Assembly (NCBI GenBank): GCA_022842785.1 | Contig: JALHOW010000006.1 | Span: 186,001-250,000 of the forward strand | Length of the DNA stretch: 64,000 nt | Reading direction: 5' to 3' | From: Hyphomicrobiaceae bacterium | GTDB taxonomy: Bacteria; Pseudomonadota; Alphaproteobacteria; Rhizobiales; Hyphomicrobiaceae | Shown here: in pieces, positions 8,392 through 34,352 of the stretch | Layout of the letters: every line of letters begins with the position of its first letter | Position numbering within the stretch: position 1 is the first letter of the stretch | Made by a program: the position numbers and the translations under genes | Notes under the pieces: model-generated | Seen by the model: only the letters and a program-made list of their open reading frames with translations | Database searches by the model: none | What the model was told of the DNA's origin: nothing

Positions 8392-8406
8392 TGCCGCTCC
8401 GGTTCC

Positions 8407-15416: not shown

Positions 15417-15432
15417 GGACCAGACGCTAAGC

Positions 15433-15469
15433 GCGCCGGCCAATGAACCCGCGGTTCATTGGCCGGCGC
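15433..15469. terminator. Strong bidirectional terminator hairpin
   Basis: A perfect 17-bp stem, GCGCCGGCCAATGAACC pairing with GGTTCATTGGCCGGCGC around a 3-base loop, lies between the converging aldehyde dehydrogenase and livM-type genes. TCATTATT follows on the plus side. It fits a shared rho-independent terminator. Confidence 0.85.
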
Positions 15470-15497
15470 TCATTATTCGATCGGGGTGTGTTTAGAT

Positions 15498-16436: not shown

Positions 16437-16446
16437 GTGCACAATC

Positions 16447-17340: not shown

Positions 17341-17399
17341 GCGCCTTCCCGCCCCGAGACAAGCGAGGCGACACGTGTGTGCCGCCTCGCCCGAAAGCC

Positions 17400-18611: not shown

Positions 18612-18635
18612 GTTTCTCTCCATTATGTCGTTTAT

Positions 18636-19346: not shown

Positions 19347-20124
19347 GGGCACCTCGAAGTGCCGGCGAGCTTGCGTCCGTTGTTCCCATGTAGGCCTCGA
19401 TCACCAGAGGATTCTGCGAGACGGACGCATATGGTCCTTCGGCAATGACGCGGCCGCGCGCGAGCACCGTGATCGTATCGGAGAGATCCGCGACCACGGA
19501 GAGATTGTGCTCGACCATGAGTACAGTCCGCGACTTGGCAACGCGCCGGATCAGCTGCGAGATGCGCCCGATATCCTCGCGGCCCATGCCGGCCATCGGC
19601 TCGTCGAGCAACATGACCTCAGGTCCGAGCGCCATGGTTGTCGCGATCTCCAGCACGCGCTTGCGTCCATAGGGGAGCTCGGCCGCAACCAGGGACTCGG
19701 ATCCCGCGAGGCCGACGTCCTGCAGGATCTCCATGGCGCGATCGTTGAGCTGATCGAGCGTCGTCTCGGAGCGCCAGAAGTGGAACGATGTGCCGAGCTG
19801 GCGCTGCAACGCAATGCGCACGTTCTCGAGTAGCGTCAGGTGCGGAAAGGTGGCCGATATCTGGAACGATCGAACGAGGCCCAGCCGCGCCACGCTGGCA
19901 GGGGCTAGACGGGTGATATCCTGTCCGTTCAGGAAAATTCGGCCTGACGTCGGCTGCAGAAACTTGGTGATGAGATTGAAGCAGGTCGTCTTGCCAGCCC
20001 CGTTCGGTCCGATCAGGGCATGGATGCTCCCGCGCCGAACCTTGAGGTTAACGTTGTCTACAGCGCGAAAGCCCTTGAAGTCCTTGACTAGGCTTTGCGT
20101 CTCGATTGCGGTGGATTGATCCAT
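19339..20124 (-). CDS. Liv-type ABC importer ATPase LivG
   Basis: A 261-residue ATPase, first gene of the Liv-type operon. It has Walker A GPNGAGKTT and Walker B VMLLDEPMAGMG. The signature loop is degenerate (LPYGRKRVLEIA), as is normal in LivG, and VLMVEHNLSVVADL follows. ATG at 20124 is preferred; the same frame also opens with a TTG at 20151. The promoter of the operon should lie in the 240 bases between this gene and position 20391, where no other gene is seen. Confidence 0.93.
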   Translation of the reverse strand: MDQSTAIETQSLVKDFKGFRAVDNVNLKVRRGSIHALIGPNGAGKTTCFNLITKFLQPTSGRIFLNGQDITRLAPASVARLGLVRSFQISATFPHLTLLENVRIALQRQLGTSFHFWRSETTLDQLNDRAMEILQDVGLAGSESLVAAELPYGRKRVLEIATTMALGPEVMLLDEPMAGMGREDIGRISQLIRRVAKSRTVLMVEHNLSVVADLSDTITVLARGRVIAEGPYASVSQNPLVIEAYMGTTDASSPALRGAHG

Positions 20125-20390
20125 CACTGGGCCTTTCACCAGCGCGTGCAAGGCTCGTCAGCGGGACGGACATCAAAGGGAACGCATTGGTGCGACACCA
20201 AACATTGCCGCGGTAGTAAACGATAGGCTGGCACCCGTGCTCCCTCCAACTGCGGGCGTCTGAACACCCTCAAATTGCTCACGGCTGTTTTTTGTTTTGT
20301 ACCGTGCAGTTACTTCTACAGCAGGCCGGACGTGCGGCGTCAAGGGTGATAGCGCTATCGCGGATGGCAAGGGCTATGTAGCACCCCCTA

Positions 20391-21767
20391 TCAAAGCTGA
20401 CCGTCGTCTCCCCACTTGTCGAGCAGCGCGCAGTAATCGGGATCCTCGTAGCGCGACAGGGTAAAGGCAGCCGCATAATCAGGCAGCGCGCTTTGCGTGA
20501 TGTGCCGTGCGATGAGGTCACCGCCGGCACACGCGGCCATCACGCCAAAACCCGAATAGGCACCTGTCACAAAGGCGCCTGCGACCGGCAATGGCCCAAT
20601 CAGCGGCCGGTTTTCGCGTGTCCTTATGTAGTAGCCGCCATCGACGAACGGCCGCGCGGCCCCGTCAAAATAGGCCTTCAGCTTGGGGACCACGGTGGCC
20701 ATGCCGCGCAGTGCGATCTCGGCGTAGTGCGCCGGCTCGGGCAGGGGGAAGACTGGATCGCTTGGGCCATGGTCGTAGTTGAAGAGTACGACGAAAGACG
20801 AATACGCGCCGGCCCCCTCTGGCCGCCCATGCACGCCCCAGGGAAATGTTCCAGTCAGCCATCGTGTTTCGTCATCGTCGGCGAGTGCGGCACGCTCATC
20901 GTCACTCCAGGGCAATTGCTGCTCGTCCAGCCAGATCAACATGGGCGCCGATCGCATCGCGCCGAGCGGATCGGGAAAACTGACCTTGAAGTGTCGCTCG
21001 GCGCTGATCGGCAGATCGACACCAATCAAGCGGGCGGCGTCCTTCAGCATTGGCCCTGCTGCGAGCACGAGGTGGCTCGCTTCGACGGAAAGTCGCTCGC
21101 CCTGCTGCTCAACTTGGACCGAGCGAACGCGTCCGCCGGCCGTATCGACGCCGACGAGTTCACCGCGCAGCAGTTTGACGCCGCGCTCCCGGATGGCTTC
21201 GAGCATGACCATGCCGAGCTGTTGGGCACTGAGCCAGCCGGCGCGCCGCGCGTGCACGACTGCGACTGTCTCGGGCGCAAGAAAAGGGAACTCCTGCTGG
21301 ATGAGGCTGCTGTCGGTGATGACATCGGCACCCGTCAGAGGAAACTCGAAGTCATGCTCGGGAGAGGGCGTGTAGGCGCTCGACGCTTTCTCATGCAACC
21401 GCACTGGACCGCCTCCCCGTGCCTCGGCAAGGGCTGCCGCAGATTGGAGGAATGGGATCTTGCTCCTGTCGGCTGTTGCGAAGAGGTAGCCGCGACGGTT
21501 CATGTTGGTGCGGTTGTCCGTCGCGCGCGCGATGCCCTCCATCAGGTCGATGCTGCGGTTCATGAATGCGGTCATCGCCCGGTCGGGGCCAGGCCACCAA
21601 TTGCGGTAGGCTTCCGTCGATTTGTCCGAGGTCAGCGAGAGAGGATTACCCTGCTCGACGAGGACCACATTCTGCTGGCCGTACTCCATGACTAGGTAGT
21701 AGGCCGCGGATATGCCCGCCAATCCCGCGCCGCATATGACGATCTTTTCCGACGAATTGCCCATCAT
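20391..21767 (-). CDS. FAD-dependent oxidoreductase, DAO family
   Basis: A 458-residue flavoenzyme of the D-amino-acid-oxidase/sarcosine-oxidase fold. The N-terminal FAD motif is VICGAGLAGISAAYYL, with the ribose-binding acid in VVLVEQG. The C-terminal FAD segment NRPLIGPLPVAGAFVTGAYS is also clear. Such enzymes oxidise amines or amino acids. Two tandem ATGs (21767, 21764) are possible, and neither has a strong ribosome-binding site. It is the last gene before the tRNA-Lys remnant, so it probably belongs to the core chromosome and not the island. An amine-oxidising role linked to the adjacent lysine cluster cannot be excluded. Confidence 0.87.
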   Translation of the reverse strand: MMGNSSEKIVICGAGLAGISAAYYLVMEYGQQNVVLVEQGNPLSLTSDKSTEAYRNWWPGPDRAMTAFMNRSIDLMEGIARATDNRTNMNRRGYLFATADRSKIPFLQSAAALAEARGGGPVRLHEKASSAYTPSPEHDFEFPLTGADVITDSSLIQQEFPFLAPETVAVVHARRAGWLSAQQLGMVMLEAIRERGVKLLRGELVGVDTAGGRVRSVQVEQQGERLSVEASHLVLAAGPMLKDAARLIGVDLPISAERHFKVSFPDPLGAMRSAPMLIWLDEQQLPWSDDERAALADDDETRWLTGTFPWGVHGRPEGAGAYSSFVVLFNYDHGPSDPVFPLPEPAHYAEIALRGMATVVPKLKAYFDGAARPFVDGGYYIRTRENRPLIGPLPVAGAFVTGAYSGFGVMAACAGGDLIARHITQSALPDYAAAFTLSRYEDPDYCALLDKWGDDGQL

Positions 21768-21875
21768 GGACCACAAGCTCAGCGCAGGTTCCCGCGCCGC
21801 GTGCGTCCGTTCGGGAGCGCGCGGTCGACGGACGTGCGACTATAGGGTTGCGGTTCCGAGAAAGTGAAGCGGGAC

Positions 21876-21937: not shown

Positions 21938-24900
21938 TCACACTTCGACAGTCGGGCTTCCGTGCCAACGGCTGCCTGCAGGCATTCTCTCACCCTTCAT
22001 CAGCAGGGAGAGTGGCCGCAGGGTCGCGTTCTGCTCCATGACTGTGTCGTAGAGGACGACACCCATGTTGCCGACAGTGCATCCATTGGAAATGCGCAGC
22101 GTCGATGATTTCATCACGCGGTCCTCGAAGAGGTGGTTCTGCACGATGGCGCCTGCATTCAGCGCGACGTGATCGCCGATCTCGATCAGGTCGAATTCAG
22201 AGTAGAGCGCGGATTCGATGTAGCAGTACTTGCCGACCTTGCAGCCAAGCGTTCTCAGCAGAACCGCTGCGACAGGCGTTCCGAAGAAGTTTGTCACCAA
22301 CGGCGCCATCAGACTCTCATATAGCCCGTTGACCATTTCGTTCCACCATACGTACCGGCTCCACAAAGGCACAATCACCGGCCGGAAGCGCCCCATGATG
22401 AGCCACTTCAAGCCGATCACCGTGCTGAGGCACGTAATGACGGCGCACCACGTCAGCAGCAGCATGGCCGTGTAGGCGCCACTGGCACCGTATTCCTCGT
22501 AGACCGCGAGAATCGTGAGCAGCGAAACGATGCCGATGCCGCCAATCACGTATCCTGGAATGAGCACGCGCAAGCCGTCGATCAGAGCGCGCTGGATGTA
22601 GAGGCCGATCGACGGTGCGTATGTGAGGCGAGAGTCGAAGCCGCCGACCTTCTGCCGATTTGGCAACCGGAAGCCCGGCGAGCCGAGCCAATCCGTATTG
22701 TCGGGCACGCGCGATCCGGCTTTGGGCGGGGTGGACAGAACGCCGAGAAGGCAGTTGTTTCCGACCCTGGATCCCGAAGGAAGTATGGCGCTGTTGCCGA
22801 TGAAAGACCCGTGGCCGATCTCATTGCGAGCGACAGTGAAGCGACCGAGATATGAACGCGAACTCCCGATCAAGCAGCCGTCGGCAAAGAAGACGCCGTC
22901 CCCTGCTGTCAGCATGTCGGGATCGATGCGCCACACCGTCGACATCTCCGTGTGACGTCCGAGACGAGCGCCGAGAAGGCGCATCCAGGGCGGCAGATAG
23001 ACGGTTGTGAAGACGGGACGCCCGATCGTCTTGACGATCTGCATCACGAGACCCGCAAGCCAATGCTGCAGATACTTCCATGAGTAGATCTGGAACACAC
23101 CAATGCGTGGGCGCGGATGCACAATGCGCTTGCAGACAGCTACCCAGATCGCAAAGGTCAGGAACGTCGCGGGCACGAGGGCCACAAACGCGGGTCCCCA
23201 AACCGAGACGCTGGTGCTGATCGCGAGCGTCGCGGCAAGCCAGGCGCCGATGGCCAGCGGCGCGAGCGTAAGGAGTACAATCGCAGGCCCGAGCAGAACC
23301 TGAAGAAGCGCGAAGGTGGCGAGGCGCAAGAAGCCAAACCTCACAGGCGCGCCTGCGGGAACCAGCACTTCAGCGGGCGCCGCGGGGGAGCCGCGGTAGG
23401 CCGCTCGGCTCGGCATTTCGGCACCGTCCGGCAGCAGGGACTGATCGTCGAGCTTCGAGTCCTCTCCCATGCGGACATTCAAGCCCAGCACCGAGTGACA
23501 CCCGACGAAGCAGCGGTTACCGACGTCGATGGTCCCGATGAGCATCTCTCCGCGTTCGATGCGGAAGCCCGGCAGCTGCGTATCCGTGCCGATGCTGACA
23601 TCATCGCCAATGCGCACGCAGTCCCAGGCATAGATCAAGGACGCATTCAGAACGCAGCGCTTGCCGACCTTGGCGCCCATGGCGCGCCAGATGAGCGGCG
23701 CGAGAGGTGTGCCATCAAAAGCCGAGATGTGGCTCAGATGCTGGAGGCGCGAGACGATCCACCAGCGGATGTAGTAGCTGCCCCACATAGGATAGTGGCC
23801 CGGTCGATAGCGACCGATGATCAGCCACTTGGCAGCGACGGCAAGAAGGATGAGCGACGCCCAGGTTACCGCGGCGACGCCAATGCCGAGCATGGCGAGC
23901 TCTGCGACGGAGGCCCGACGCTGGAGTGCGTCGATCGCGAGGGGCAATATATACACCGCCGGCAATGCCAGAACCGGCATGACCGATAGCAGGTAGATGA
24001 ATTGAAACGTGGGCGTATACCAAGGGCGCTTCGGAGCGACGACAGCCACTGGAGCCGCGTCGGCGCTGCTTGCCGGAGTGCGAACGGCAACTTCATCCAA
24101 ACGCGTCGCGAGTTCCCGAACGGTGGGATAGCTGTAGATGTCGCGCACGGGGACATTCGTGCCGAATTCGGCGCGCAGCGCGTTGGCGAGGCCGGCAGCC
24201 ACGAGCGAATGTCCGCCGAGGTCTGAGAAGAAATTCTGCTCGGGGCCAACGCTGGCAAGGCCGAGCTGCTTGGCCCAAACAGAAGCAACACGCGCCTCGA
24301 GCGGCGTCATAGTCGCGGCGGCCCCGCCGTCCTCATTGACGAGCAGATGCTTGGGCGCGGGTAGTTCAGCGCGATTGACCTTGCCGCTCGCGAGCCTCGG
24401 GAATGTCTCGAGCTCGTCGAGGTAGGCTGGCACCATGTAGGTCGGCAACCGGTCACGTAGTACCGCCAGAACGCGCGTACGATCGATCTCGAGGTGCTCG
24501 GTCCGCAGGATATAGGCCGCCAGATGCTGGAGGTTGTTCTCCTCGTGCACCGTCACGACCGCAGCCGAGATCTCCGGCTGCTCGAGTAGAACGGCCTCGA
24601 TCTCGGACAGCTCGACGCGAAAGCCGCGGATTTTGACCTGGCTGTCGATGCGGCCGAAGAACTCCAGCTCACCTTCTTCATTCCAGCGGACAAGATCGCC
24701 GGCTTTGTACAAGCGCTGCGGCGCGCCCATATCGTCGGGCAGTATCCAATCGATATAGCTGCGCGCGGTCAGCTCGGCCTGGCCGAGGTAGCCACGCGAG
24801 ATGCCCGGGCCGCCAATATAGAGCTCGCCCTTCTCGCCTCTCGCTACAGGGCGCAAGTCGGCATCGAGAATATGGATGTCATAGCCGCGGAGTGGCCGGC

Positions 24901-26017
24901 CGATCGTGACCGGCACGCCCGCCTGGAGGATGGCGGCCGTCGTGTTCACGGTCGCCTCTGTGGGACCGTAGACGTTCAGCATCTTCCGGCCGGGGCGCGC
25001 CCAGCGATAGACGAGGTCGATGTGGCAGGCCTCGCCGCTCACGACCAGCTGCCGCAGCGAAGCGATGTCGCGCGGCAAGGTCGATAGCAGGGTCGGGACC
25101 GTGGAAAGGAACGTGATCTGCTTCTCGTCGAGGAAGGCCGCAAGATCGGCACCGAAGCGCGGCGTCGTCGTATCACCGCAGACGAGCGTGGCGCCGTTGG
25201 AGAAGGCCATCCAGATTTCTTCGACGGAGCCGTCGAAGCCGAGCGAGAAGCCCTGAAGGACGCGGTCCGCGGCGGTCGTGTCACACACGTCGTTGAAGGC
25301 CGCCACGAAGTGCACGACGTTGCGATGTTCCGTGACGACGCCTTTCGGGCGTCCGGTCGTGCCAGACGTGAAGAGCACGTAGCAGATGTCTGCAGGATGA
25401 ACGCCCGTCTCGATTTGGGACAGGCGATGTCCGACTATGGCATCCGAATGCGCGCGATAGTCGCTGATGGTGACCAGCTCAGTTCCAGTGATCTCGCGCA
25501 GACGCTCTTCATAGGCGGCTTCGGAAACGACGGCTGCCAGGCCAGCGGCCTCGGCGATGTAACGAATGCGGTCATTCGGAAGTGAGGGCTCGATGGGGAC
25601 GTAGGCTGCGCCACACTTGAGAATGCCCAGGAGTGCAATCACAGGCCATTCAGAGCGATCGAGGGTGATCCCGACAAAGGATCCGACACCGATGCTGCGG
25701 GAACTCAGATAGCGAGCAAACTTGTTGGCTTCGACATCTACGTCCCGGTAGCTGTACGCGCGATTGCCGCACTCCAGTGCGATGGCATCGGGCGTGAAAT
25801 CGGCCTGCAGCTCGAAGATTTCGTGCAGGCAGTATGGAGTCGAGAGCCGCGATACCGGCGTGCTCGATACTTCCAGAGCGGTTCGGCCAAGCGCGTCGGA
25901 GCGCTCGTACAAGTCGAGCGGCGCATATGCGACGGCCGTCCCACCCGCGGCGAAGGTTTTGCTTCTCGCACTCGGAGCCAAAGCCAGCTCGATGCGAGTT
26001 CTTGATACGGTGTTCAT
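21938..26017 (-). CDS. Pls-type nonribosomal peptide synthetase (A-PCP-membrane hexapeptide domains)
   Basis: A 1359-residue protein built like epsilon-poly-lysine synthetase Pls. An adenylation domain spans about residues 60-560 (LFTSGTTGRPKG 215-226; NVYGPTEATV 348-357; catalytic Lys546 in SGKVNRAEL). A carrier protein follows (Ser604 in DLGGHSL). Then comes a long membrane region with TM pairs and three hexapeptide-repeat (left-handed beta-helix) units. No condensation or thioesterase domain is present, as in Pls, where the C-terminal units join monomers. By my alignment to GrsA the pocket residues are D262, G263, E266, S305, V325, S327, V349, V357, N358, K546. The acidic E266 and S305 resemble lysine-activating domains. 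It would act at the inner membrane after priming by a PPTase. Confidence 0.88.
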   Translation of the reverse strand: MNTVSRTRIELALAPSARSKTFAAGGTAVAYAPLDLYERSDALGRTALEVSSTPVSRLSTPYCLHEIFELQADFTPDAIALECGNRAYSYRDVDVEANKFARYLSSRSIGVGSFVGITLDRSEWPVIALLGILKCGAAYVPIEPSLPNDRIRYIAEAAGLAAVVSEAAYEERLREITGTELVTISDYRAHSDAIVGHRLSQIETGVHPADICYVLFTSGTTGRPKGVVTEHRNVVHFVAAFNDVCDTTAADRVLQGFSLGFDGSVEEIWMAFSNGATLVCGDTTTPRFGADLAAFLDEKQITFLSTVPTLLSTLPRDIASLRQLVVSGEACHIDLVYRWARPGRKMLNVYGPTEATVNTTAAILQAGVPVTIGRPLRGYDIHILDADLRPVARGEKGELYIGGPGISRGYLGQAELTARSYIDWILPDDMGAPQRLYKAGDLVRWNEEGELEFFGRIDSQVKIRGFRVELSEIEAVLLEQPEISAAVVTVHEENNLQHLAAYILRTEHLEIDRTRVLAVLRDRLPTYMVPAYLDELETFPRLASGKVNRAELPAPKHLLVNEDGGAAATMTPLEARVASVWAKQLGLASVGPEQNFFSDLGGHSLVAAGLANALRAEFGTNVPVRDIYSYPTVRELATRLDEVAVRTPASSADAAPVAVVAPKRPWYTPTFQFIYLLSVMPVLALPAVYILPLAIDALQRRASVAELAMLGIGVAAVTWASLILLAVAAKWLIIGRYRPGHYPMWGSYYIRWWIVSRLQHLSHISAFDGTPLAPLIWRAMGAKVGKRCVLNASLIYAWDCVRIGDDVSIGTDTQLPGFRIERGEMLIGTIDVGNRCFVGCHSVLGLNVRMGEDSKLDDQSLLPDGAEMPSRAAYRGSPAAPAEVLVPAGAPVRFGFLRLATFALLQVLLGPAIVLLTLAPLAIGAWLAATLAISTSVSVWGPAFVALVPATFLTFAIWVAVCKRIVHPRPRIGVFQIYSWKYLQHWLAGLVMQIVKTIGRPVFTTVYLPPWMRLLGARLGRHTEMSTVWRIDPDMLTAGDGVFFADGCLIGSSRSYLGRFTVARNEIGHGSFIGNSAILPSGSRVGNNCLLGVLSTPPKAGSRVPDNTDWLGSPGFRLPNRQKVGGFDSRLTYAPSIGLYIQRALIDGLRVLIPGYVIGGIGIVSLLTILAVYEEYGASGAYTAMLLLTWCAVITCLSTVIGLKWLIMGRFRPVIVPLWSRYVWWNEMVNGLYESLMAPLVTNFFGTPVAAVLLRTLGCKVGKYCYIESALYSEFDLIEIGDHVALNAGAIVQNHLFEDRVMKSSTLRISNGCTVGNMGVVLYDTVMEQNATLRPLSLLMKGERMPAGSRWHGSPTVEV

Positions 26018-26216
26018 GCGTCTTCCAGGGTCGCGTTGCGCGTATTTGATCCCTGAGACGCAAGGTTTATGCCGCCATATGCGGCCGAAGGCCTGAGGCC
26101 CCCCAAATCATGCCGATCAATTAACTAAGAGTGAGATGTTGGCACGTTGACGCACAAGTCGGCCCGCGAATTGCGAACTCGAGAACACGTGTTCGCATTT
26201 GGTACGGAGTGGCGTC
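26018..26216. promoter_or_regulatory. Divergent promoter region, Pls-like synthetase / aminomutase
   Basis: About 200 bases separate the divergent synthetase and aminomutase genes, with an AT-rich patch near 26105-26135. This layout would let both genes be controlled together. No operator could be recognised by eye. Confidence 0.35.
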
Positions 26217-27527
26217 ATGTCCTTCATGGACTACCTTGGGTTCGATCGTTCGGCAGGGCTCTATGCATCGAACTCGCAAGAAGACTTTCTTAATCACAAC
26301 TGGCAGGACAAGAACTCGGTCATCCGCATCGAGCAGCTAGAGGCTGTACTCCGCGATACCGCGCCCGCCAGCATCGTCAGCGAGATCCGCGACGGCCTCA
26401 AAAAGGTCGGCATGTCGATCCGCCTCAACCCTTACATGATGGACTTGATCGACTGGCGAAACGCCGAGACGGATCCCATTCGACGCCAATTTCTTCCCAT
26501 GCTTTCCGAGCTCGAGCCCGATCATCCGTGCATGTCGGTCGACTCGCTCGAGGAGCGCAACACGTCGCCGGCGCCCAATCTCGTTCATCGCTATCCCGAC
26601 AAGGTGCTGTTCCTCGTCACCTCCGTGTGCCCCGTCTACTGCCAGTACTGCACGCGCAGCTATGCCGTCGGCCAGGACACGGAGAAAGTGCGGAAGGACA
26701 ATGTGACGAGCGCAAACGGCTGGGCCGCAGCTCTCGAATACATCCGTTCCAATCCGACCATCGAAGACGTTGTTGTATCAGGCGGAGACATCGCACGGCT
26801 GAAGCCGGCGAACATCAAGGCGCTCGGGCATGCCCTTCTGGACATCGAGCACGTGCGCCGCATCCGGTTTGCGACGAAGTCCGTATCGGTGCTGCCGATG
26901 AAATTCCTGACGGACGAGGCGTGGTTCTCGGCGATCGTGGAAGTGGCTCAGCGCGGACGCCAGATGTTCAAAAGCGTTTTCGTGCATACGCATTTCAATC
27001 ATCCGCGCGAGGTCACGCCGCTGGTGGAGAAGGCCATGCGCCGTCTCTTCTCGGAAGGCATTCACGTTCGCAACCAGGCAGTTCTCCTGCGCGGCGTCAA
27101 TGATGACCCCGAGACGCTGATCGAGCTCACGAAGAAGCTCGGCCGCGTGAATATCCAGCCCTATTATGTCTACTCGTGCGACATGGTTCTCGGAACGGAA
27201 CACTTCCGCGTGCGCGTGCCGGAAATGCAGCGGCTCGAGCGCGAGGTCCGTGGCGCAACCGCGGGGTTCAATACGCCGCTCTTCATCGTCGATGCGCCAG
27301 GCGGCGGGGGAAAGCGCGACGTGCACAGCTATGAGTACCGGGATGACAAGTACGGGATCAGTGGTTACCGCTCACCCTCGGTCGATCCGAACCGCATGTT
27401 CTACCACTTCGATCCGCTTCGCGAACTCGAGGCTGGTGCACGAGCGGAGTGGCGCGCTCCCGGTGGCCGTGAGGCCATTCTCCAGCGCCTCGGTATCCTG
27501 AGGCCGGAGAGCGTTGCCGCCGAATGA
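26217..27527 (+). CDS. Lysine 2,3-aminomutase-like radical SAM enzyme (KamA family)
   Basis: A 436-residue radical SAM/PLP enzyme. It has the cluster motif CPVYCQYC (Cys138, Cys142, Cys145), the SAM-fold segment VFVHTHFNHPREVTP and the PLP lysine in VDAPGGGGK (Lys366). In characterised lysine 2,3-aminomutase, Asp293 and Asp330 hold the substrate side-chain amine and Lys337 binds PLP. Here Asp322, Asp359 and Lys366 have the same 37- and 7-residue spacing, which favours L-lysine to beta-lysine over glutamate. ATG at 26217 follows GGAG; TTG at 26199 is less likely. It diverges from the Pls-like gene, so beta-lysine as a building block for it is a reasonable inference. Confidence 0.9.
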   Translation: MSFMDYLGFDRSAGLYASNSQEDFLNHNWQDKNSVIRIEQLEAVLRDTAPASIVSEIRDGLKKVGMSIRLNPYMMDLIDWRNAETDPIRRQFLPMLSELEPDHPCMSVDSLEERNTSPAPNLVHRYPDKVLFLVTSVCPVYCQYCTRSYAVGQDTEKVRKDNVTSANGWAAALEYIRSNPTIEDVVVSGGDIARLKPANIKALGHALLDIEHVRRIRFATKSVSVLPMKFLTDEAWFSAIVEVAQRGRQMFKSVFVHTHFNHPREVTPLVEKAMRRLFSEGIHVRNQAVLLRGVNDDPETLIELTKKLGRVNIQPYYVYSCDMVLGTEHFRVRVPEMQRLEREVRGATAGFNTPLFIVDAPGGGGKRDVHSYEYRDDKYGISGYRSPSVDPNRMFYHFDPLRELEAGARAEWRAPGGREAILQRLGILRPESVAAE

Positions 27528-27570
27528 TCGTCCTCGCGCAGGCGCGGTCAGCTAGCTGTCTCTCCCCCAG

Positions 27571-27646
27571 CTAAAGCAACGGACTTGAAATTCACCTCAG
27601 CTCGCGGCTGGGCGGGGTGTGAATTTCAAGTCCAAAGTTGCTTTAG
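27571..27646. repeat. Long inverted repeat between convergent genes
   Basis: The left arm (27571-27595, CTAAAGCAAC then GGACTTGAAATTCAC) pairs with the right arm (27619-27646), interrupted only by a 3-base bulge: 25 matched pairs around a 23-base spacer. It lies between the converging aminomutase and hydrolase genes. It could be a bidirectional terminator, but the arm length and AT-rich sequence unlike its surroundings also suit a small mobile repeat. No flanking target duplication was established. Confidence 0.75.
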
Positions 27647-27731
27647 AACACTATGCCTCTAAAGCGTCTTTGGACCTTAGATGGGACTTTGAGATCAGCG
27701 CGGGCGTGGGTCGCAATTAAGGTCTGACGCT

Positions 27732-28736
27732 TTAGAAACCGTGCCTGCGGAGGAACCCGACAATATCCTCGGTTGCGGCATTCCTGTTTCGGCGATCACC
27801 CCCGCAGCACGTCGCGCCGAGTGTCATGCAGTTCTTCTTGGCCCACGCGTGCCAGTCGTCTTCCGGGACGATTTCTCCCGTATCCGCTGAGATCATGCGG
27901 CCATCTTCCTCGACCCAGACGCGACACTGGGCATAGTTCTCAGCGCGGGCGTCATACAGCGGTCGCCAGCCGAGTTCCTCCCAGGCGTGGTGGGCACCCT
28001 TGTAGATCTTCGTTTCGACCTGGGCGTTGCCTGTCCTCTGGATGCGACCGGCAAGTGCGAGGCAAGGCTCGGCTGGAGTCTGATCGTCGAGCTCTGCCAG
28101 CAGAAAGATGATCGGCGCGCCAGTCGTATTGGCCCGACGCGTCACCCAAGTACAGTCGGGCGAAATCGCCACGTGCGCGGCGAATGCGACGTCACGAACG
28201 CCCATCCATCGCCGTCGAACTGTGAATGCATTGTTCATGGCGGTCGTGCCGCCCTTGGAAACGCCCAGGATCGCAATGCGGTCGCCCTTGAAGCGCGGAT
28301 CTTTGGCGAGTTTCGCAAGCGCCGCTATGGCGTCGTTCTCCATATCCCAGACATCGATCGCGCTCTGGTCATAGACGGAATCAGCAAGCCCACGGGCGGA
28401 GAAGCTGTCCACTACGAGCGCGGCGATGCCGACCCTGGTCAGCTGATCCGCGTAGTAGACCTCGCGTGCGTCTTCGATCCCGCTGCTCGACGGCATGATG
28501 ATGACTGCCGAAAGCGGGAACTGTGCGTCCTTGGGGATGTAGAGCGTCGCCTTGACGTTGATCGGCTCGTCATTGGTCGTCCCGGCGACGACGTTGGTGC
28601 CGAAAGTCAGGCTCTCCGTGGTGTAAGGCTTCAGGACCGCAATGTACCAATATGCGGCAAGCGCCAGAGCAAGCAAGATCGCCCCGGCGAGCGCAGCAGC
28701 ACGTCCGCTTCTCAGTGATGCTCTTATAGCCTTCAC
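27732..28736 (-). CDS. Membrane-anchored alpha/beta hydrolase (dienelactone hydrolase family)
   Basis: A 334-residue protein with an N-terminal TM anchor (about residues 14-35, AALAGAILLALALAAYWYIA), so the catalytic domain probably faces the periplasm. The hydrolase triad is visible as the nucleophile elbow GVSKGG, the acid in LLAELDDQTP and the histidine in KGAHHAWEE. Several cysteines near the C-terminus (CMTLGATCCGG) may form disulfides. It lies 27 bases downstream of the C45-family gene and is probably co-transcribed with it. Substrate is unknown; an ester or amide made by the neighbouring synthetase is possible. Confidence 0.83.
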   Translation of the reverse strand: MKAIRASLRSGRAAALAGAILLALALAAYWYIAVLKPYTTESLTFGTNVVAGTTNDEPINVKATLYIPKDAQFPLSAVIIMPSSSGIEDAREVYYADQLTRVGIAALVVDSFSARGLADSVYDQSAIDVWDMENDAIAALAKLAKDPRFKGDRIAILGVSKGGTTAMNNAFTVRRRWMGVRDVAFAAHVAISPDCTWVTRRANTTGAPIIFLLAELDDQTPAEPCLALAGRIQRTGNAQVETKIYKGAHHAWEELGWRPLYDARAENYAQCRVWVEEDGRMISADTGEIVPEDDWHAWAKKNCMTLGATCCGGDRRNRNAATEDIVGFLRRHGF

Positions 28737-28763
28737 TTCCCCGTTACTCTTGCGGCGAGATGA

Positions 28764-29777
28764 TCAGGATATGGCGCGCGCGTCTCCTGCAAACATGAAT
28801 TCGATCGGATAGTCCACCCAGCCCTTTCGGGGTTCGCGCCGAAGCCAGAAGCTGGCGACACGGCGATCGAGGTCGACGATTGCCCGTGCGATGGTGTTCT
28901 CGTTGAGAACGCTATTGACCGGGCCGCGCGTACTATCGCCGGTAAGCTTGGTGAGCCCGGCTCGATCCATGGCCGGAGACGCAAGTGTGCAGGCTGCATT
29001 ATAGCGCTCGATTGTGCTTCGCCCATCCAGCTCGCCCTGCACATCGCTTAGAGCGCCATCGAGCATATGGTTGGTATGAACGAACGGCAGCTTCGGGTGG
29101 CGGACGCTCTGCCGCTTTGCAGAGCACTCGACGGCGGTAGTGCGTCCGCTGCGATCGACCAGTGTGTGCGCAAAGCCGGATGCGCGCGGGAGAGCGAGAA
29201 GGTCGGGAAGCTCGCGCGCTGCATCGGCAAGTTCTGAAAGACGTCGCGCGATGACGATCTTCGGGATCCCCAGGCGCTGATCGACATGGTTAAGGCTATT
29301 GATGGCTTGCACGTATCCGCGCGAGCAGATGCTCAATGCGGTACCGCCGAGGGGGCAGCCGTAATAGTAGAGCTCGAGGGTGGTGACGCCCGCGCAGGTG
29401 CGCTTGAGTATGCAAATGTCTTCGACTGCGTCGGCGTCCCAGTCTTCGTTGTGCGCGATCAGGCGGCCGTTGTTGGTTACCACGGTCGTGCACTTCTCAG
29501 CGTCGTCGAGCTCCTCGCTGATGCTCATGGTCCACAAGTCGAGCAAGTCGACGCGCGCAGCATCAGCGTAGGCTCGGAGTTCCTCGATGTAGGTGGGGAA
29601 GTATTTTGCGGCCACAGCCAGATAACGGTCCGCCTCGACCCTGAGCCGGCGCCAGTGCCGCGAGTCCTCCTCGTCTTCGATGTACTCGCGCACTTTCGCG
29701 CCGAAGAGACGGCCCAGTTGGCGCCCGCACGCCGCAGCGTCCGCTCCAACTACCTCATGATAATTCGCGTGCGACAT
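28764..29777 (-). CDS. C45-family Ntn hydrolase (acyl-CoA:6-APA acyltransferase / carcinine hydrolase-like)
   Basis: A 337-residue protein of the C45 Ntn-hydrolase family, which includes penicillin acyltransferase, carcinine hydrolase and the insect beta-alanyl-amine hydrolase Tan. The autoprocessing nucleophile is Cys96 in EKCTTVVTNN, followed by the conserved LIAHNEDWDAD. Self-cleavage before this cysteine would release the active subunit. ATG at 29777 (MSHANYHEV) is preferred to GTG at 29795. No signal peptide is seen. Enzymes of this family cleave amide bonds between acyl or aminoacyl groups and amines, so it could hydrolyse or remodel an isopeptide made by the Pls-like enzyme. That role is inferred from context. 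Confidence 0.8.
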   Translation of the reverse strand: MSHANYHEVVGADAAACGRQLGRLFGAKVREYIEDEEDSRHWRRLRVEADRYLAVAAKYFPTYIEELRAYADAARVDLLDLWTMSISEELDDAEKCTTVVTNNGRLIAHNEDWDADAVEDICILKRTCAGVTTLELYYYGCPLGGTALSICSRGYVQAINSLNHVDQRLGIPKIVIARRLSELADAARELPDLLALPRASGFAHTLVDRSGRTTAVECSAKRQSVRHPKLPFVHTNHMLDGALSDVQGELDGRSTIERYNAACTLASPAMDRAGLTKLTGDSTRGPVNSVLNENTIARAIVDLDRRVASFWLRREPRKGWVDYPIEFMFAGDARAIS

Positions 29778-30019
29778 CGACCGGTTCTCTTTCACTCGTC
29801 GGAAACAGCAGGGCCAAGCGCCTCAGCGTACCGCGCGATGGTAAATGCACATGCAGTGCCAGAGGATAACCCGTCTCCTCGTTCATTGGATGGGACAGCG
29901 CTGTTCCTTGATCGAAGGAACTTTCGGATTGGATGAGCCGCTGCTTCCAACTGGCATCCGAATTGCTCCTCTCCACACATCTCCCCCTGAAAGAAGGCGC
30001 TGCGGCGCGAGGTATCGTC

Positions 30020-30628
30020 ATGATGATGCGAGTAACGAATACAGCTTCCCAAATCCGTAAGCATCCGTCTCAAAGCGGCACAGTGCGCAAGATGCTCGTC
30101 GCATCTGCGTTCGTCGCAATTGCAGGGCTTGTGGCCACCGGACCTGCTCGAGCGACCAACACCGCCGAACAGCCGCCGGCGGCGGCAGCGGTGCCGGCGC
30201 CTCAAGCCGCCACCTGCTCGCGTACGGCGACGATCTGGTGGAGCGAGCTTCTGGCACCAGAAACCGAGCGCCTCACCGACTTCTACGCGAAGGTCATGGG
30301 CTGGAACACCAAGATCGTCGACGCCGAGGATCAGTCGGAGCCGGCACGCACACCCGACGACCGCTACACCATCTTCACGGACGGGGTGCGGGAGGTCGCA
30401 GGCCTCATGAAATCCAATCATCCGGAGGCGGCACACACCGCCCTTGGCTGGTTCACGTACATGCAGGTTCCCGACGTGGAGGCTGCGGTCGCGAAGGCTG
30501 TGCAGGCCGGCGGCAAGCTCCTGCGCGAACCGACTGAATCTTCTGAGGGCCACATCATCGCAGTTATCAGCGATCCGATGGGCAACGCTTTCGGCCTCGT
30601 CACGCCCGCCAACAATAGCCGCTGCTGA
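30020..30628 (+). CDS. Exported VOC-family (glyoxalase-fold) protein
   Basis: A 202-residue protein. The first ~50 residues hold a basic start and a hydrophobic export signal (KMLVASAFVAIAGLVATGPA, then RAT), followed by a Pro/Ala-rich linker. The rest is one VOC module: IWWSELLAPETERLTDFYAKVMGW, YTIFTDG, GWFTYMQVPDVEAAVAKAVQAGGK and the C-terminal VISDPMGNAFGLVTP. VOC proteins are metal-dependent lyases, dioxygenases or binding proteins, and most are cytoplasmic, so a signal sequence is unusual. Three ATGs (30020, 30023, 30026) are in tandem and the exact one is uncertain. Function is not assigned. Confidence 0.78.
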   Translation: MMMRVTNTASQIRKHPSQSGTVRKMLVASAFVAIAGLVATGPARATNTAEQPPAAAAVPAPQAATCSRTATIWWSELLAPETERLTDFYAKVMGWNTKIVDAEDQSEPARTPDDRYTIFTDGVREVAGLMKSNHPEAAHTALGWFTYMQVPDVEAAVAKAVQAGGKLLREPTESSEGHIIAVISDPMGNAFGLVTPANNSRC

Positions 30629-30670
30629 AAACGCCAGCGCACGCGCGCCAAAAGAAACTGGAGGAAGCGC

Positions 30671-30874
30671 ATGACAGCGTATGTCGCGAGGAAGCCTGAC
30701 GGCTCAATTGCAAAGGGCTGGATTCTGAAATCCGGAACGTCGATCAACTCCGCGGTGTGCCGCCCACCCTCGCCCGAGCGGAGCCGCGAGATCATCGAGG
30801 AAGTACCGGTCGATGTCGTCCTGAACAGTGCCGCCGGCGGGAGTTCGGCGGAGACCGCTCACAGAAAGACGTAA
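30671..30874 (+). CDS. Small hypothetical protein
   Basis: A 67-residue protein behind a strong ribosome-binding site (GGAGGAAGCGC then ATG). The sequence MTAYVARKPDGSIAKGWILK begins a compact beta-rich region, and the C-terminus is Ser/Ala/Arg-rich. It begins 42 bases after the VOC gene and ends before a hairpin terminator, so the two are probably co-transcribed. No family is recognised. Confidence 0.5.
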   Translation: MTAYVARKPDGSIAKGWILKSGTSINSAVCRPPSPERSREIIEEVPVDVVLNSAAGGSSAETAHRKT

Positions 30875-30910
30875 ACGCGCTGACGGCGCGTCGATCGAGC
30901 CAAAAAACAA

Positions 30911-30939
30911 GAAAGCCGTGACCCGAGGTCACGGCTTTC
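30911..30939. terminator. Bidirectional rho-independent terminator
   Basis: GAAAGCCGTGACC pairs with GGTCACGGCTTTC around a CGA loop, a 13-bp perfect stem. A-rich sequence precedes it and T-rich sequence follows it, so it serves both the VOC/small-protein unit and the convergent BcsS-like gene. Confidence 0.9.
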
Positions 30940-30971
30940 GTTGTTCAGAGCCGACGGCTCAGTCGTTGTTC

Positions 30972-31766
30972 TTAGCGACCGTAGGCAATGCGGAACTCGA
31001 GGGTCCCGTACATGCCGTCATCGAAGTTGCGACCGCCAAAGCCGTCGCCGCTGCCAAACTGGTAGCCGCCCGAAATCGCCAACGTACCGAACATAGACGG
31101 GCTGATCGGGATATCGAACGAGAGGAATGCACCAAGGCGCTGTGCATCGCCCGAAAGATCACCGAGCACCCAGCCCTCGGGGCCGACCGTTACGTGGCCG
31201 AACTTATGTCCGACGCGTGCGAGGCCGTAGTAGGTGTCGAAGGCCGTCGAGTAGCTACCGGCGAGGTGGAAGTACAGCGGCGACGTGTTCGTGTGATTTG
31301 TGGTGATGTCACCAGCGACCTTGAAGCCGGTTTCGGCGCCGCGAAGATCATTGGTTGGGTCGTATGGATCGACCTTGTGATGCTGGTAGTCGACGCCGAC
31401 ATAAACGGCGACATCGACGCCACCACGAACCCACTGATAGCCGAGCATGGCATCACCCTGCCAATAATCGACATCGTGCTCGGTTACACCGTTCCGGTAG
31501 TCGTATGCGCCCATCGTCCCGAGTATCCTCAGGACAAAACCATCGCGATTCAGATCGCGATTGAAGGCATAGAAGAGCCCGCTGTAGCTCTCATACGCAT
31601 TTTTGGTAACATCCAGTCCGGAAACGGTGACCAGCGGATAGGTCATCTCCGGGCCGCTGTCTTTATAGCTGCCGCCACCGCCTGCGAGTGCGGGCATCGA
31701 GAATACGGCGCCAGCGCTCAATGCCGTCGCCACTGCCAGACCCCGCAGGATTTTTGCCCCCGTCAT
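30972..31766 (-). CDS. BcsS-like outer-membrane beta-barrel protein
   Basis: A 264-residue protein with a signal peptide (AVATALSAGAVFSMPALAGG). The mature part alternates short polar and aromatic beta-strands and ends IAYGR. It resembles the cellulose biosynthesis BcsS family of predicted outer-membrane proteins. No cellulose synthase genes are nearby, so a role in cellulose is doubtful, and a porin-like or structural role is possible. ATG at 31766 sits behind GGAGGAGA. It is followed by the 13-bp terminator and lies downstream of the PPTase gene on the same strand with about 150 bases between, so it probably has its own promoter. Confidence 0.72.
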   Translation of the reverse strand: MTGAKILRGLAVATALSAGAVFSMPALAGGGGSYKDSGPEMTYPLVTVSGLDVTKNAYESYSGLFYAFNRDLNRDGFVLRILGTMGAYDYRNGVTEHDVDYWQGDAMLGYQWVRGGVDVAVYVGVDYQHHKVDPYDPTNDLRGAETGFKVAGDITTNHTNTSPLYFHLAGSYSTAFDTYYGLARVGHKFGHVTVGPEGWVLGDLSGDAQRLGAFLSFDIPISPSMFGTLAISGGYQFGSGDGFGGRNFDDGMYGTLEFRIAYGR

Positions 31767-31913
31767 TCCAAATCTCCTCCTTCGCCAAGCGCCCAATGCC
31801 TGCGATTGGAGGAGAACTTATCTGAGTCGGTCCTTACCAAACTTCATACAAATCATCTTTGTATGGACCTGTGGCTCTGGGAACACAGGGCTATGGTGCA
31901 TAGAGGGGATTAC

Positions 31914-32738
31914 CTATGCGCTCGGACCGTCAGCCACGGGGGATGTGGCATCAATCGTCGCAAACGCCCATCGTTGCGTCGGATTCCGGATGCCGTCGAG
32001 GTGCGTCAGTAGCGGTGGGTCAACCTGAGAGAAGGCGAACGACCGCAAATCTTGGGCGAGCCCCTGGCCCGTCGCCTTGATAAAGGCTTCGCCGAGCGTC
32101 CAAAAGCGATAGAAGAGCGCGATTCTCTCGGAAGGCTGACGCGCACTTTTCAGCGCTTCCAGCATCGGCGGCGCGAACGTCGCGGCGGCTATGCCATCCA
32201 TATCGTCGAGTGACATCACGGCCTCGACATCAATCCCGATCCGGCGCGTTGCTATGGCAACTGCCACGAGCCCGGTCGTGTGGCTGATGTTGAAGTGAAT
32301 TCGCTCCACCAAAGCGCCATGGGCCGCCGGATCCAATTTGGGCTTCCCGAGAGGATCGCGGACGATACTGACCTTCTCGGGCGCACAATTGAGCAACTCA
32401 GCCAATTGCATTCGGGCAGCCGCTCGCGCCGCGGCGACGCTCCATCGATGGCTGGAAATTTGAAAGCGCCTAACCTCCGCCTGCTCCAGAGGCGGCAGAT
32501 AGGGCATCAGCGGAGCAACGTCCTCATCCACCGGCGCGCCATACCAAACGTGCAGCCTGCAGCCGGCACTCGGCTCGGCGCTATCGTCCAGTAGGCTTTC
32601 GATTTCGGCGATGTGAGGTGTTTCACCAGCCCCGAGTTCCACGGCCCACGACGTGGCAAACTGGATGCGCGCCTCTCGAGGATCCGAGAGACTGCGCACA
32701 GATCGAAGTGGGAGCGAAAGCGGCATCGTGCGAGTCAT
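31914..32738 (-). CDS. Sfp-type 4'-phosphopantetheinyl transferase
   Basis: A 274-residue enzyme that moves phosphopantetheine from CoA to a serine on carrier proteins. The magnesium-binding motif is IGIDVEAV and the second motif is FYRFWTLGEAFIKATGQGL, close to the Sfp-type WxxKEA; HFNISHTTGLVAVA precedes them. Sfp-type enzymes typically serve secondary metabolism. The only carrier protein seen here is that of the Pls-like synthetase (Ser604), so this is its likely activator, about 6 kb away. ATG at 32738 has only a weak ribosome-binding site. The gene is the last before the intact tRNA-Lys 3' fragment. Confidence 0.9.
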   Translation of the reverse strand: MTRTMPLSLPLRSVRSLSDPREARIQFATSWAVELGAGETPHIAEIESLLDDSAEPSAGCRLHVWYGAPVDEDVAPLMPYLPPLEQAEVRRFQISSHRWSVAAARAAARMQLAELLNCAPEKVSIVRDPLGKPKLDPAAHGALVERIHFNISHTTGLVAVAIATRRIGIDVEAVMSLDDMDGIAAATFAPPMLEALKSARQPSERIALFYRFWTLGEAFIKATGQGLAQDLRSFAFSQVDPPLLTHLDGIRNPTQRWAFATIDATSPVADGPSA

Positions 32739-32918: not shown

Positions 32919-32963
32919 TTGGTGAGCGGGGTGGGGATCGAACCCACGACCATCTGATTAAAA
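32919..32963 (-). repeat. tRNA-Lys 3' fragment, attachment site next to integrase
   Basis: Read on the minus strand, these bases are the 3' half of a tRNA-Lys: loop CTTTTAA (anticodon TTT), stem TCAGA, T-arm GTGGG-TTCGATC-CCCAC, acceptor CCCGCTC, A and CCA. Sequence beyond the anticodon loop (plus strand, 32964 on) does not match a 5' tRNA half, so this is not a whole gene. The match ends in the anticodon loop, a known crossover point for tRNA-targeting integrases. An integrase gene starts 166 bases away. The intact tRNA-Lys should lie at the other end of the element, outside this window. Confidence 0.85.
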
Positions 32964-33128
32964 GTTTGTTCTCCTGAGGTTTCTCAATGTTGCGTGTGGT
33001 TGCGCATAGTTGATAATCCATTGAAAGTCTGCGGGTCGCGGCGTCCGTGTGTCGCTGCTGGCTACTTTGAATTGCTATACGGTGAATGCCAATGAGCACT
33101 CCAGCATTCACGGACTGGGCAGGCAGGT

Positions 33129-34352
33129 ATGCGAGCGAAGATCACCAAGCGTAGGGCGGATGTCGCGCGCGATCAGGCTATGGCCGTCGGGCGCCCAATA
33201 GTCCTCTTCGACACCGGGCAGCCGGGCTTCGTGCTTAAGGCGTCGCCAACGGGTAACCGCACCTACCAGTTTCGGTATCGTATGGGCGGTCGCAACACAC
33301 CATTGCGCACGTACACGATCGCCCGTCACGGCGACATGACACCTGAGCAGGCGCGTCGTCAGGCGCAGGCGTTACTCGGCGACGTGCGCCAGGGAATAGA
33401 TCCCGCCGCTCAGAAACTGAAGCGCGCCGCCGAGGCAAGGGGCGCGCTCACACTCGCCCAAGTGGCCGCCGATTTCATGGACGTCCATGTTCGTGCCAAG
33501 CGAAAGTCTAGCACGGTCGCTGAGTACGAGCGGCTTCTGCGCACGCTGATCCTGCCATCGTTCGGCGCCCGTCGGCTTGGCGACATCTCGAGCGGCGATA
33601 TCGAGCGCTGGCACTACGGCAAGCGCGCCACGCCATACCAAGCCAATCGCGCGCTCGCGGTGCTTTCCAAGCTCATGAGCTGGGGCGGCAGCCGCGGGTA
33701 TAGACAAGGTGATAATCCGTGCCGGCCTGTCGAACGCTTCAAGGAGCTCCCGCGCAAGCGCTATCTCTCACCTACCGAGATCGCCCAGATCGGCGGGGCA
33801 ATCCGGGAGCTCGAGAGTGGCGAAGGTCTTAGCCCGCATGTCGCCGCCTTGTTTCGGGTGCTTCTTCTTACCGGCATGCGCAAGGACGAGCTGCGCCTGC
33901 TTGAATGGCGTAGGGTCGACCTTATCCGAGTGGTGATCGTCCTAGAGGATAGGGACGCGAAGGGCGGCGCCCGCGACGTGCCCTTATCGGCGCCGGTCAT
34001 GCAAATTCTCTCGAGCTTGCCGCGACTCGCAGGCAATGACTTCGTATTCGTCGGCAACCGTGTTGGCCGGCCCGTTGTCAACGTGTCGAAGCCGTGGGCC
34101 CGCGTCCTGAAGGCCGCTGGCATAGACCGTGCCCGCATCCACGATCTACGCCATACGGCCGCGAGCGTCGGCGTCGCAGCCGGCGTGAGCCTGACGCTGA
34201 TTGGCGGCGTTCTCGGGCACAAGAGCCATCAAACGACGGCGCGTTATGCGCACCTCTCCGACGACCCAGTGCGCGCGTCCTCTGAAGCAATTGCCGCACG
34301 AATCGACAAGGCCTTGGGGAGCCCCGCCGGCCATACTAAATTAGCGTCGTAG
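33129..34352 (+). CDS. Tyrosine-type integrase with DUF4102-like N-terminus
   Basis: A 407-residue site-specific recombinase. The N-terminal arm (GFVLKASPTGNRTYQFRYR) is the DUF4102-like domain of tRNA-targeting integrases, and a SAM-like core-binding domain follows at about 105-200. The catalytic set is complete: Arg251 (TGMRKDEL), His338 and Arg341 (HDLRHTAAS), His364 (LGHKSH) and Tyr373 (ARYAHL). It would integrate and excise the element by crossover at the tRNA-Lys site just upstream. No frameshift is seen, so it may still be active. Confidence 0.95.
   Translation: MRAKITKRRADVARDQAMAVGRPIVLFDTGQPGFVLKASPTGNRTYQFRYRMGGRNTPLRTYTIARHGDMTPEQARRQAQALLGDVRQGIDPAAQKLKRAAEARGALTLAQVAADFMDVHVRAKRKSSTVAEYERLLRTLILPSFGARRLGDISSGDIERWHYGKRATPYQANRALAVLSKLMSWGGSRGYRQGDNPCRPVERFKELPRKRYLSPTEIAQIGGAIRELESGEGLSPHVAALFRVLLLTGMRKDELRLLEWRRVDLIRVVIVLEDRDAKGGARDVPLSAPVMQILSSLPRLAGNDFVFVGNRVGRPVVNVSKPWARVLKAAGIDRARIHDLRHTAASVGVAAGVSLTLIGGVLGHKSHQTTARYAHLSDDPVRASSEAIAARIDKALGSPAGHTKLAS

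Follow-up and report, generated by a model that had tools for sequence, protein, structure and literature searches.

Epsilon-poly-L-beta-lysine is a cationic antibiotic recently reported from an actinobacterium: in Streptoalloteichus hindustanus, its synthetase is encoded next to a lysine 2,3-aminomutase (Yamanaka, ACS Chem Biol 2022, as cited in PMC10522769 and PMC9606270). A delta-poly-L-ornithine synthetase, PosA, is described from Acinetobacter baumannii (PMC10522769), and the streptothricin pathway forms beta-lysine oligomers via ORF18/ORF19 (PMC9606270).

Here, we describe a cluster of seven genes (Table 1) in a 64,000-nucleotide stretch of a Hyphomicrobiaceae genome (GCA_022842785.1, contig JALHOW010000006.1), hereafter the window. 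It resembles the S. hindustanus system in its Pls-type enzyme, its neighbouring aminomutase and 9 of 10 pocket positions of the synthetase, but it is alphaproteobacterial and also contains genes for a PPTase, a C45 protein, a hydrolase, a VOC protein and a BcsS-family protein, a comparison that takes the actinobacterial locus as it appears in the citing papers. With PosA, it shares the enzyme family, the membrane polymerisation domain and a Gram-negative host, whereas the PosA code, that of an ornithine enzyme, is DMEHNGTVS. The streptothricin pathway lacks, to our knowledge, a Pls-type membrane domain; what it has in common with the system proposed here is L-beta-lysine isopeptide chains, which are grown on a carrier by a stand-alone A domain and joined to an antibiotic core. 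An earlier, sequence-only reading of the window knew of no description of this exact gene set. The pairing of Pls with an aminomutase was, however, already published for the actinobacterium (PMC10522769), and what seems new is an alphaproteobacterial version, with a partly conserved accessory set, of a product class and gene pairing known from there.

Table 1. Genes of the cluster and the adjacent tRNA fragment, in window coordinates.
Feature	Position	Strand	Evidence or remark
Pls/PosA-type NRPS	21938..26017	-	TIGR02353 559.2 bits (cut-off 423.1); AMP-binding and PP-binding domains
KamA-family radical SAM aminomutase (LAM-like)	26199..27527	+	TIGR00238 234.5 bits (cut-off 199.2)
DLH-type alpha/beta hydrolase, membrane-anchored	27732..28736	-	single N-terminal hydrophobic segment, residues 16-34
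C45 (AAT) family amidase/acyltransferase	28764..29795	-	NF040521 130 bits (cut-off 85); PF03417
VOC protein (glyoxalase/bleomycin-resistance superfamily)	29933..30628	+	N-terminal hydrophobic segment, residues 50-68
BcsS-family protein	30972..31796	-	PF17036 157.4 bits (cut-off 24)
Sfp/HetI-type PPTase	31914..32738	-	PF01648 46.6 bits (cut-off 25)
tRNA-Lys 3' fragment, 46 bp	32920..32965	-	left attachment site of separate element; outside cluster

Five of these genes (Pls, aminomutase, anchored hydrolase, C45 and PPTase) had been placed at the same coordinates from sequence alone, and family profile matches bear them out; the VOC and BcsS-family genes are two additional members. The open reading frames P0005 (29792-30553) and P0006 (30828-32012) were rejected as genes, being antisense to the conserved VOC and BcsS genes, and a DAO oxidoreductase (20391-21776) was rejected as a cluster member, being without counterpart in loci L005-L007.

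The cluster, entire or partial, is found in four other genomes, and in all five clusters the aminomutase adjoins Pls and the PPTase lies inside the cluster. The co-occurrence on which the sequence-only reading had staked its proposal thus holds for Pls, aminomutase and PPTase in four further genomes. The C45 gene is present in four of the five clusters, the exception being L050, whose contig ends inside Pls, and the hydrolase, VOC and barrel genes are each present in three. In L005 and L006, the seven genes stand together while the genes flanking them in the window are absent. The DLH, VOC and BcsS genes are absent from the entire 25.8-kb contig of MnTg02, and neither these nor C45 were seen at L050 in the 10.6 kb past the PPTase, where the accessory genes lie in L005 and L006. 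Since further genomes also have these genes side by side, we consider their association to be beyond chance. When C45 and aminomutase relatives were each counted over 150 genomes of the order, C45 relatives (E <= 1e-30) appeared in only two genomes, both with the aminomutase (E <= 1e-60), the sameness of the two sets of 150 being judged by listed handles and tallies; the plasmid collection gave no C45 match at E <= 1e-20. A scan of genome contigs relied on two short peptide patterns only, and relatives altered at those peptides would therefore be missed; it confirmed 3 loci out of 52 candidate stretches and did not return Streptoalloteichus.

The synthetase contains the A, carrier and C-terminal polymerisation domains of the Pls/PosA family and scores above its profile cut-off. 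The carrier motif, GGHS, is at residue 601, and the C-terminal domain has three hydrophobic pairs (near 673-727, 907-962 and 1151-1204) which, judged by hydropathy only, agree with the six-TM, three-pair scheme of Pls/PosA. Two weaker hydropathy peaks, at 124-142 and 1236-1254, fall outside this scheme. The adenylation pocket reads DGESVSVVN(K), with Asp and Glu (D262 and E266) at positions 1 and 3. The code of a characterised epsilon-poly-beta-lysine synthetase is given as DGESISVVNK (PMC10522769); the two are equal at 9 of 10 positions, with I replaced by V at position 5 and the tenth residue, Lys, read from the SGKVNR motif rather than from the alignment. The nine-letter code DGESVSVVN is found in all five clusters and in none of 20 control Pls loci, and the four complete Pls sequences that carry it form one clade with a support of 100/100. 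On this basis, the window Pls is predicted to be an epsilon-poly-beta-lysine synthetase.

The controls come from two sources. The TIGR02353 cut-off is exceeded in 15 of 101 genomes of the order, two of which are the window's genome and G002; the remaining 13 and one genome below the cut-off (G078, locus L037) give 14 loci, to which 6 were added out of 45 plasmid records that matched Pls-type enzymes, read up to 8 kb on each side. L037, for its low score, and L027, which has an odd code and splits its A domain and terminal domain between ORFs, are poor members. Missing neighbours carry less weight in L027, L029, L033, L034, L036 and L037 because a contig end lies ~3 kb or less from the synthetase. 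Near the Pls of one control, L024 (code DFEALGTVT), there is a gene for a distant KamA-like protein (34.6%).

The start codons of the aminomutase and Pls genes are divergent and separated by 181 bp. Aligned to 2a5h, the aminomutase keeps C144, C148, C151, R153, D328, D365 and K372 (C125, C129, C132, R134, D293, D330 and K337 in 2a5h), which we take to be the CxxxCxxC motif, the lysine-site residues (one Arg, two Asp) and the PLP lysine. A second KamA-like gene in this genome shares the Asp, Arg and Lys residues, which hence do not single out the cluster enzyme. Glutamate and arginine 2,3-aminomutase identities were rejected, with equivalog scores far under cut-off. The enzyme also falls below the AblA equivalog cut-off (TIGR03820, 273.2 versus 525.4 bits). 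AblA and AblB (TIGR03820/TIGR03827) form the acetyl-beta-lysine pathway, which has an osmolyte role. We observe two aminomutase relatives, with 47-48% identity, in a different class of the phylum; one of them (48%) adjoins a gene for an AblB-like beta-lysine N-acetyltransferase (203.8 bits; cut-off 205.1). This relative likewise misses TIGR03820, at 261.1 bits, and the window enzyme is therefore classed only as KamA family. For the other relative (L064), the downstream ORF tested gave no NCBIfam family match. In the cluster, by contrast with AblA/AblB, no AblB-like gene was recognised and the presumed consumer of beta-lysine is the Pls-type synthetase. Besides these two genomes, relatives lacking the Pls block occur in the four plasmid stretches read (out of six plasmid records found), and in Rhizobium, a relative lies near PKS and adenylation-domain genes. 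We predict from sequence that the cluster enzyme is a lysine 2,3-aminomutase and the source of L-beta-lysine.

The PPTase is one of two PF01648 matches in the genome, the second being of AcpS size. Its gene is displaced in the window and directly follows the aminomutase in the other four clusters, and the protein matches the PPTases of L005-L007 at just 32-40% over 98-154 residues. The DLH-type hydrolase has a GVSKGG motif and invariant cysteines, which suggest that it is a hydrolase of the periplasm; no solved relative was found by sequence (E up to 0.01). For the VOC protein, whose true start may be downstream of the first ATG, we infer a signal peptide and a periplasmic location. The BcsS-family protein is modelled with middling confidence (pLDDT 65.4, pTM 0.61) as a 12-stranded beta-barrel, whose best PDB matches are barrels, although weak ones (E 2e-4 and worse; query TM-score <= 0.50), and the model would probably place it in the outer membrane. 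The C45 protein passes the curated cut-off, has no hydrophobic segment and contains invariant EKC(102)TTVV and HNEDWD motifs, with the C102 nucleophile invariant in 4 of 4 sequences. The Gly-Cys cleavage site of IAT and Tan is absent, being Lys101-Cys102 in all four. For C45, too, sequence searches gave no solved relative (E up to 1), and the AlphaFold model was unusably poor (mean pLDDT 53.6). In insects, Ebony joins beta-alanine to amines, and the Ebony/Tan pair resembles the present locus, by analogy only, in combining an enzyme that joins a beta-amino acid in amide linkage with a C45 enzyme able to cut that linkage. Tan is assigned to C45 in PMC10194958.

From the computed genes, families, neighbour conservation and pocket residues, we infer the substrate, product, localisation and every accessory role. 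L-lysine would be converted to L-beta-lysine by the aminomutase, the PPTase would prime the carrier domain of the synthetase, the A domain would activate beta-lysine, and the membrane C-terminal domain would link the units at the inner membrane. We consider it likely that the product of this alphaproteobacterial cluster is a cationic, isopeptide-linked L-beta-lysine homopolymer or oligomer, made in a Gram-negative cell, a judgement on the product that leaves the accessory proteins aside. The genes and their recurrence support the original proposal that a Pls-type enzyme, with its own aminomutase and priming PPTase, makes a beta-lysine isopeptide. For the accessory proteins, each role is tentative: the BcsS-family barrel may let the chain out through the outer membrane or anchor it there, the anchored hydrolase and VOC protein could serve in trimming, self-protection or binding in the periplasm, and C45, probably cytoplasmic, might cut beta-lysyl amide bonds or, alternatively, acylate the chain. 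Enzymes that degrade epsilon-poly-lysine are known. A full Gram-negative poly-beta-lysine system, with inner-membrane synthesis, BcsS exit or anchoring, VOC and hydrolase binding and trimming in the periplasm, and recycling by C45 as a beta-lysyl isopeptidase, is a doubtful reading as a whole; if true, it would link the BcsS family to a non-cellulose polymer and C45 enzymes to the turnover of isopeptides. The cluster is a candidate second, Gram-negative source of this antibiotic and prompts one to ask how a two-membrane cell exports and tolerates a membrane-active polycation. It also offers candidate proteins for single-gene deletion in a species with a deposited strain (Filomicrobium insigne CGMCC 1.6497).

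The chain could differ from a beta-lysine homopolymer in its units or in what is bound to it. The nearest Pls outside the clade, L035, has a lysine-like code, DAESVGTVV, and the aminomutase relatives in Rhizobium and beside the AblB-like gene occur in other settings, as would fit a synthetase of epsilon-poly-L-alpha-lysine or of a mixed lysine/beta-lysine chain, with the aminomutase serving some other end, such as osmolyte formation or lysine use. We regard this as quite unlikely: against the epsilon-poly-lysine enzyme 7wew (position 9 unaligned), the window differs at four compared positions (2, 5, 6 and 7), with the residue of the beta-lysine code at three of them (G, S and V) and V for I at one; the synthetase adjoins the aminomutase in every cluster, and profile searches matched no AblB-type acetyltransferase among the cluster proteins. 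A homopolymer is likelier than a mixed chain because of the pocket code, its presence in all five clusters and in none of the 20 controls, and the AblB-adjacent aminomutase relative. Of the two products the sequence-only reading had left open, beta-lysine is retained and mixed lysine is disfavoured by the pocket code. It is unlikely, too, that the beta-lysine chain is bound to an acyl group or a sugar polymer as an envelope component, for instance through C45 acting as an acyltransferase. C45/PF03417 does take in acyltransferases such as IAT, and BcsS owes its name to cellulose loci, of which it is an additional component, making an exopolysaccharide link conceivable, but the conserved block showed no recognisable gene for a partner molecule, and Tan, likewise C45, is a hydrolase.

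The integrase (33129-34352) and the tRNA-Lys fragment begin only 0.4 and 0.2 kb, respectively, from the right-hand gene of the cluster, and the accessory genes are absent from two of the five loci, which would suit unrelated genes brought together by chance where a mobile element ends. We find this highly improbable: recurrence refutes it for Pls, aminomutase and PPTase, the seven-gene blocks of L005 and L006 lack the window's flanks, and the element lies to the right of the cluster. The cluster had been placed in a tRNA-bounded island, a description we abandon, as the cluster does not lie between the att repeats. The sole tRNA that ARAGORN finds in the window is tRNA-Ser (2727-2816), none of whose 18-mers is repeated in the rest of the window or in L038, the region with the island end. 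The 46-bp tRNA-Lys fragment, on the other hand, is repeated exactly at an intact tRNA-Lys 37.3 kb rightward, and these repeats therefore put the island to the right; most likely, the integrase belongs to this element and not to one surrounding the cluster.

The lysine/beta-lysine isopeptide cluster proposed in the sequence-only reading was recovered with all of its named genes (Pls-type synthetase, aminomutase, membrane-anchored hydrolase, C45 and PPTase) inside 21938-32738. From sequence comparison, the cluster appears to represent the poly-beta-lysine system that pairs Pls with an aminomutase, in an alphaproteobacterial form whose accessory genes are conserved only in part; the core of this reading is well supported, while the roles of the accessory proteins are ones we infer. 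Among the literature matches listed (titles and the beginnings of abstracts, with most subscription journals outside the search), none describes a proteobacterial poly-beta-lysine cluster.

Predicted features of the window (window positions)
Feature	Position	Strand	Remark
Glycosyltransferase, left flank	12524-13807		
Aldehyde dehydrogenase, left flank	13947-15416	+	
DAO-type oxidoreductase, left flank	20391-21776		
Pls/PosA-type synthetase	21938-26017	-	leftmost cluster gene; TIGR02353 559.2 vs cut-off 423.1 bits
Aminomutase	26199-27527	+	KamA family
DLH-type hydrolase, anchored	27732-28736	-	
C45 amidase/acyltransferase	28764-29795	-	
VOC superfamily protein	29933-30628	+	
BcsS-family protein	30972-31796	-	
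PPTase	31914-32738	-	rightmost cluster gene
Tyrosine integrase of element	33129-34352		
Two subtilase genes of element	41206-43542 and 47361-49226		
Two very large ORFs of element	49371-56369 and 55919-62986		2332 and up to 2355 aa

In the synthetase, the carrier motif lies at residue 601, and hydrophobic segments occur in pairs along the C-terminal half. Alignment of its adenylation (A) domain to PosA (8g95) and an epsilon-poly-lysine synthetase (7wew) gives the pocket residues D262, G263, E266, S305, V325, S327, V349, V357 and N358, with the tenth, usually Lys, taken from the SGKVNR motif. The epsilon-poly-beta-lysine enzyme of Streptoalloteichus, whose discovery was helped by an adjacent lysine 2,3-aminomutase gene, is reported to have the code DGESISVVNK (PMC10522769), and the window enzyme therefore matches at 9/10 positions. 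Among the papers listed, the nearest to a prior description is a Methylomarinum enzyme with the code DGESISVVNK, the A domain of which yielded very little soluble protein (PMC10522769). All nine aligned residues are the same in the other four cluster loci (L004, L005, L006 and L050); the controls (14 Pls loci of the order and 6 from plasmids) have different codes. When 16 Pls sequences were placed in a tree, those four that are complete and carry the window-type code grouped in a single clade (support 100/100), neighboured by a sequence with the lysine-like code DAESVGTVV (L035; support 99/98). Elsewhere, at L024 (G069:C4:54000-73000), a distantly related KamA-like gene, 34.6% identical to the window aminomutase, is separated by 1.5 kb from a Pls-type synthetase whose code is DFEALGTVT (genes at 5260-6591 and 8078-12415); the two may be another kind of aminomutase-Pls pair.

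When named genomes were scanned with a two-row aminomutase alignment, three loci came up, in a Hyphomonadaceae MAG (L005; 85% aminomutase identity to the window), in Filomicrobium insigne (L006; 78%) and in Bacterium MnTg02 (L007, on the same contig as L004; 69%). Within the window's family, 4/103 genomes carry the aminomutase, the window's own included; judging from coordinates, two of the other three are L005 and L006, and the third (G881, locus L050) is new. L005 and L006 share the order Pls(-), aminomutase(+), PPTase(+), DLH(-), C45(-), VOC(+), BcsS(-), whereas the window PPTase sits at the far end on the opposite strand. The MnTg02 locus consists of C45, Pls, aminomutase and PPTase, and no DLH, VOC or BcsS gene was found on its 25.8-kb contig. 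L050 holds Pls, cut by the contig end, with aminomutase and PPTase, and no other reference genes occur in the 10.6 kb past the PPTase, the side where L005 and L006 have them. The neighbourhood thus recurs outside this genome: Pls, aminomutase and a PPTase are present in 5/5 genomes, four of them besides the window's, C45 in 4/5 (three besides the window's), and DLH, VOC and BcsS in 3/5. At the thresholds used, aminomutase occurrence is patchy (2/150 order, 1/385 class and 1/398 phylum genomes, each count including the window's own), with no match in four other listed genomes of the genus. C45 relatives occur in 2/150 order genomes, the same two that have the aminomutase, and DLH relatives in one of the 150, the window's own.

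The aminomutase scores over the KamA family cut-off and under every equivalog cut-off listed. An alignment to 2a5h shows that the cluster cysteines and the PLP lysine are conserved, as are one Arg and two Asp positions of the lysine site; because another KamA-like gene of the genome keeps them too, these residues do not set it apart. More telling is an AblB-like beta-lysine N-acetyltransferase gene (203.8 bits, just under the cut-off of 205.1) next to the aminomutase in L063, one of two relatives (with L064; 47-48% identity) found among 369 genomes when the search was focused on a different class within the phylum. The L063 alignment spans 409 residues, including the C-terminal part. In L064, the tested downstream ORF had no family match, and Pls was absent from the ~20 kb examined around both aminomutases. 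More relatives are present in six plasmid records, at 48-49% identity in Sinorhizobium and Rhizobium and at 43-44% in Klebsiella; none of the four stretches examined contains the Pls block, and in one of them PKS and adenylation-domain genes are close by. The subfamily is therefore wider than Pls clusters, and its probable role is to produce free beta-lysine. L063 (G995:C1:274000-293900) also shows a row of MarR-like regulator, aminomutase and AblB-like genes (8604-11634), possibly a regulated acetyl-beta-lysine operon in that other class. On the Klebsiella oxytoca plasmid pKOR-5873 (L053), typed as conjugative, the KamA-family gene (14983-16287; 43.7%) is flanked by genes annotated as hypothetical.

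Among the accessory proteins, the DLH-type protein is read as probably periplasmic from its GVSKGG motif, N-terminal hydrophobic segment and invariant cysteines. In the VOC protein, the N-terminal part likewise includes a hydrophobic segment, and two cysteines are invariant; among proteins of solved structure, Rv0577 is the closest to it in sequence (E 6e-17). Insect Tan cuts beta-alanyl-dopamine, and by analogy the cluster C45, which has no hydrophobic segment, might cut a beta-amino acyl amide. IAT and Tan are C45/PF03417 proteins self-cleaving at Gly-Cys (PMC10194958), whereas the invariant Cys102 of the cluster C45 is preceded by Lys. The BcsS-family protein, which has one further family member in the genome, was modelled with 12 strands (pLDDT 65.4, pTM 0.61). 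The best 50 of its 780 PDB matches (E <= 10) are weak (best E 2e-4, query TM-score <=0.50) and, judging by their titles, nearly all outer-membrane beta-barrels. The genome has two PF01648 matches, the cluster PPTase and a second that we take for AcpS because of its length (142 codons).

The cluster had also been placed in a tRNA-bounded island, which the flanks contradict. The tRNA-Lys 3' fragment found at 32920-32965 has an exact second copy in an intact tRNA-Lys(TTT) 37.3 kb rightward on the same contig, with an integrase gene directly inside the left copy; thus, the element begins where the cluster ends, and the repeats bracket it beyond the cluster. Cluster GC (0.611) falls between that of the left flank (0.622) and the in-window part of the element (0.604). 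The 37-kb element occupies window 32920-64000 and reaches 70.3 kb in contig C6; its two very large ORFs had no Pfam match at E <= 0.001. Counterparts of the left-flank genes (3009-21776) were not seen in L005-L007. In this flank, minus-strand transport genes predominate, assigned by eye to TRAP, ABC iron-type and branched-chain amino-acid-type systems.
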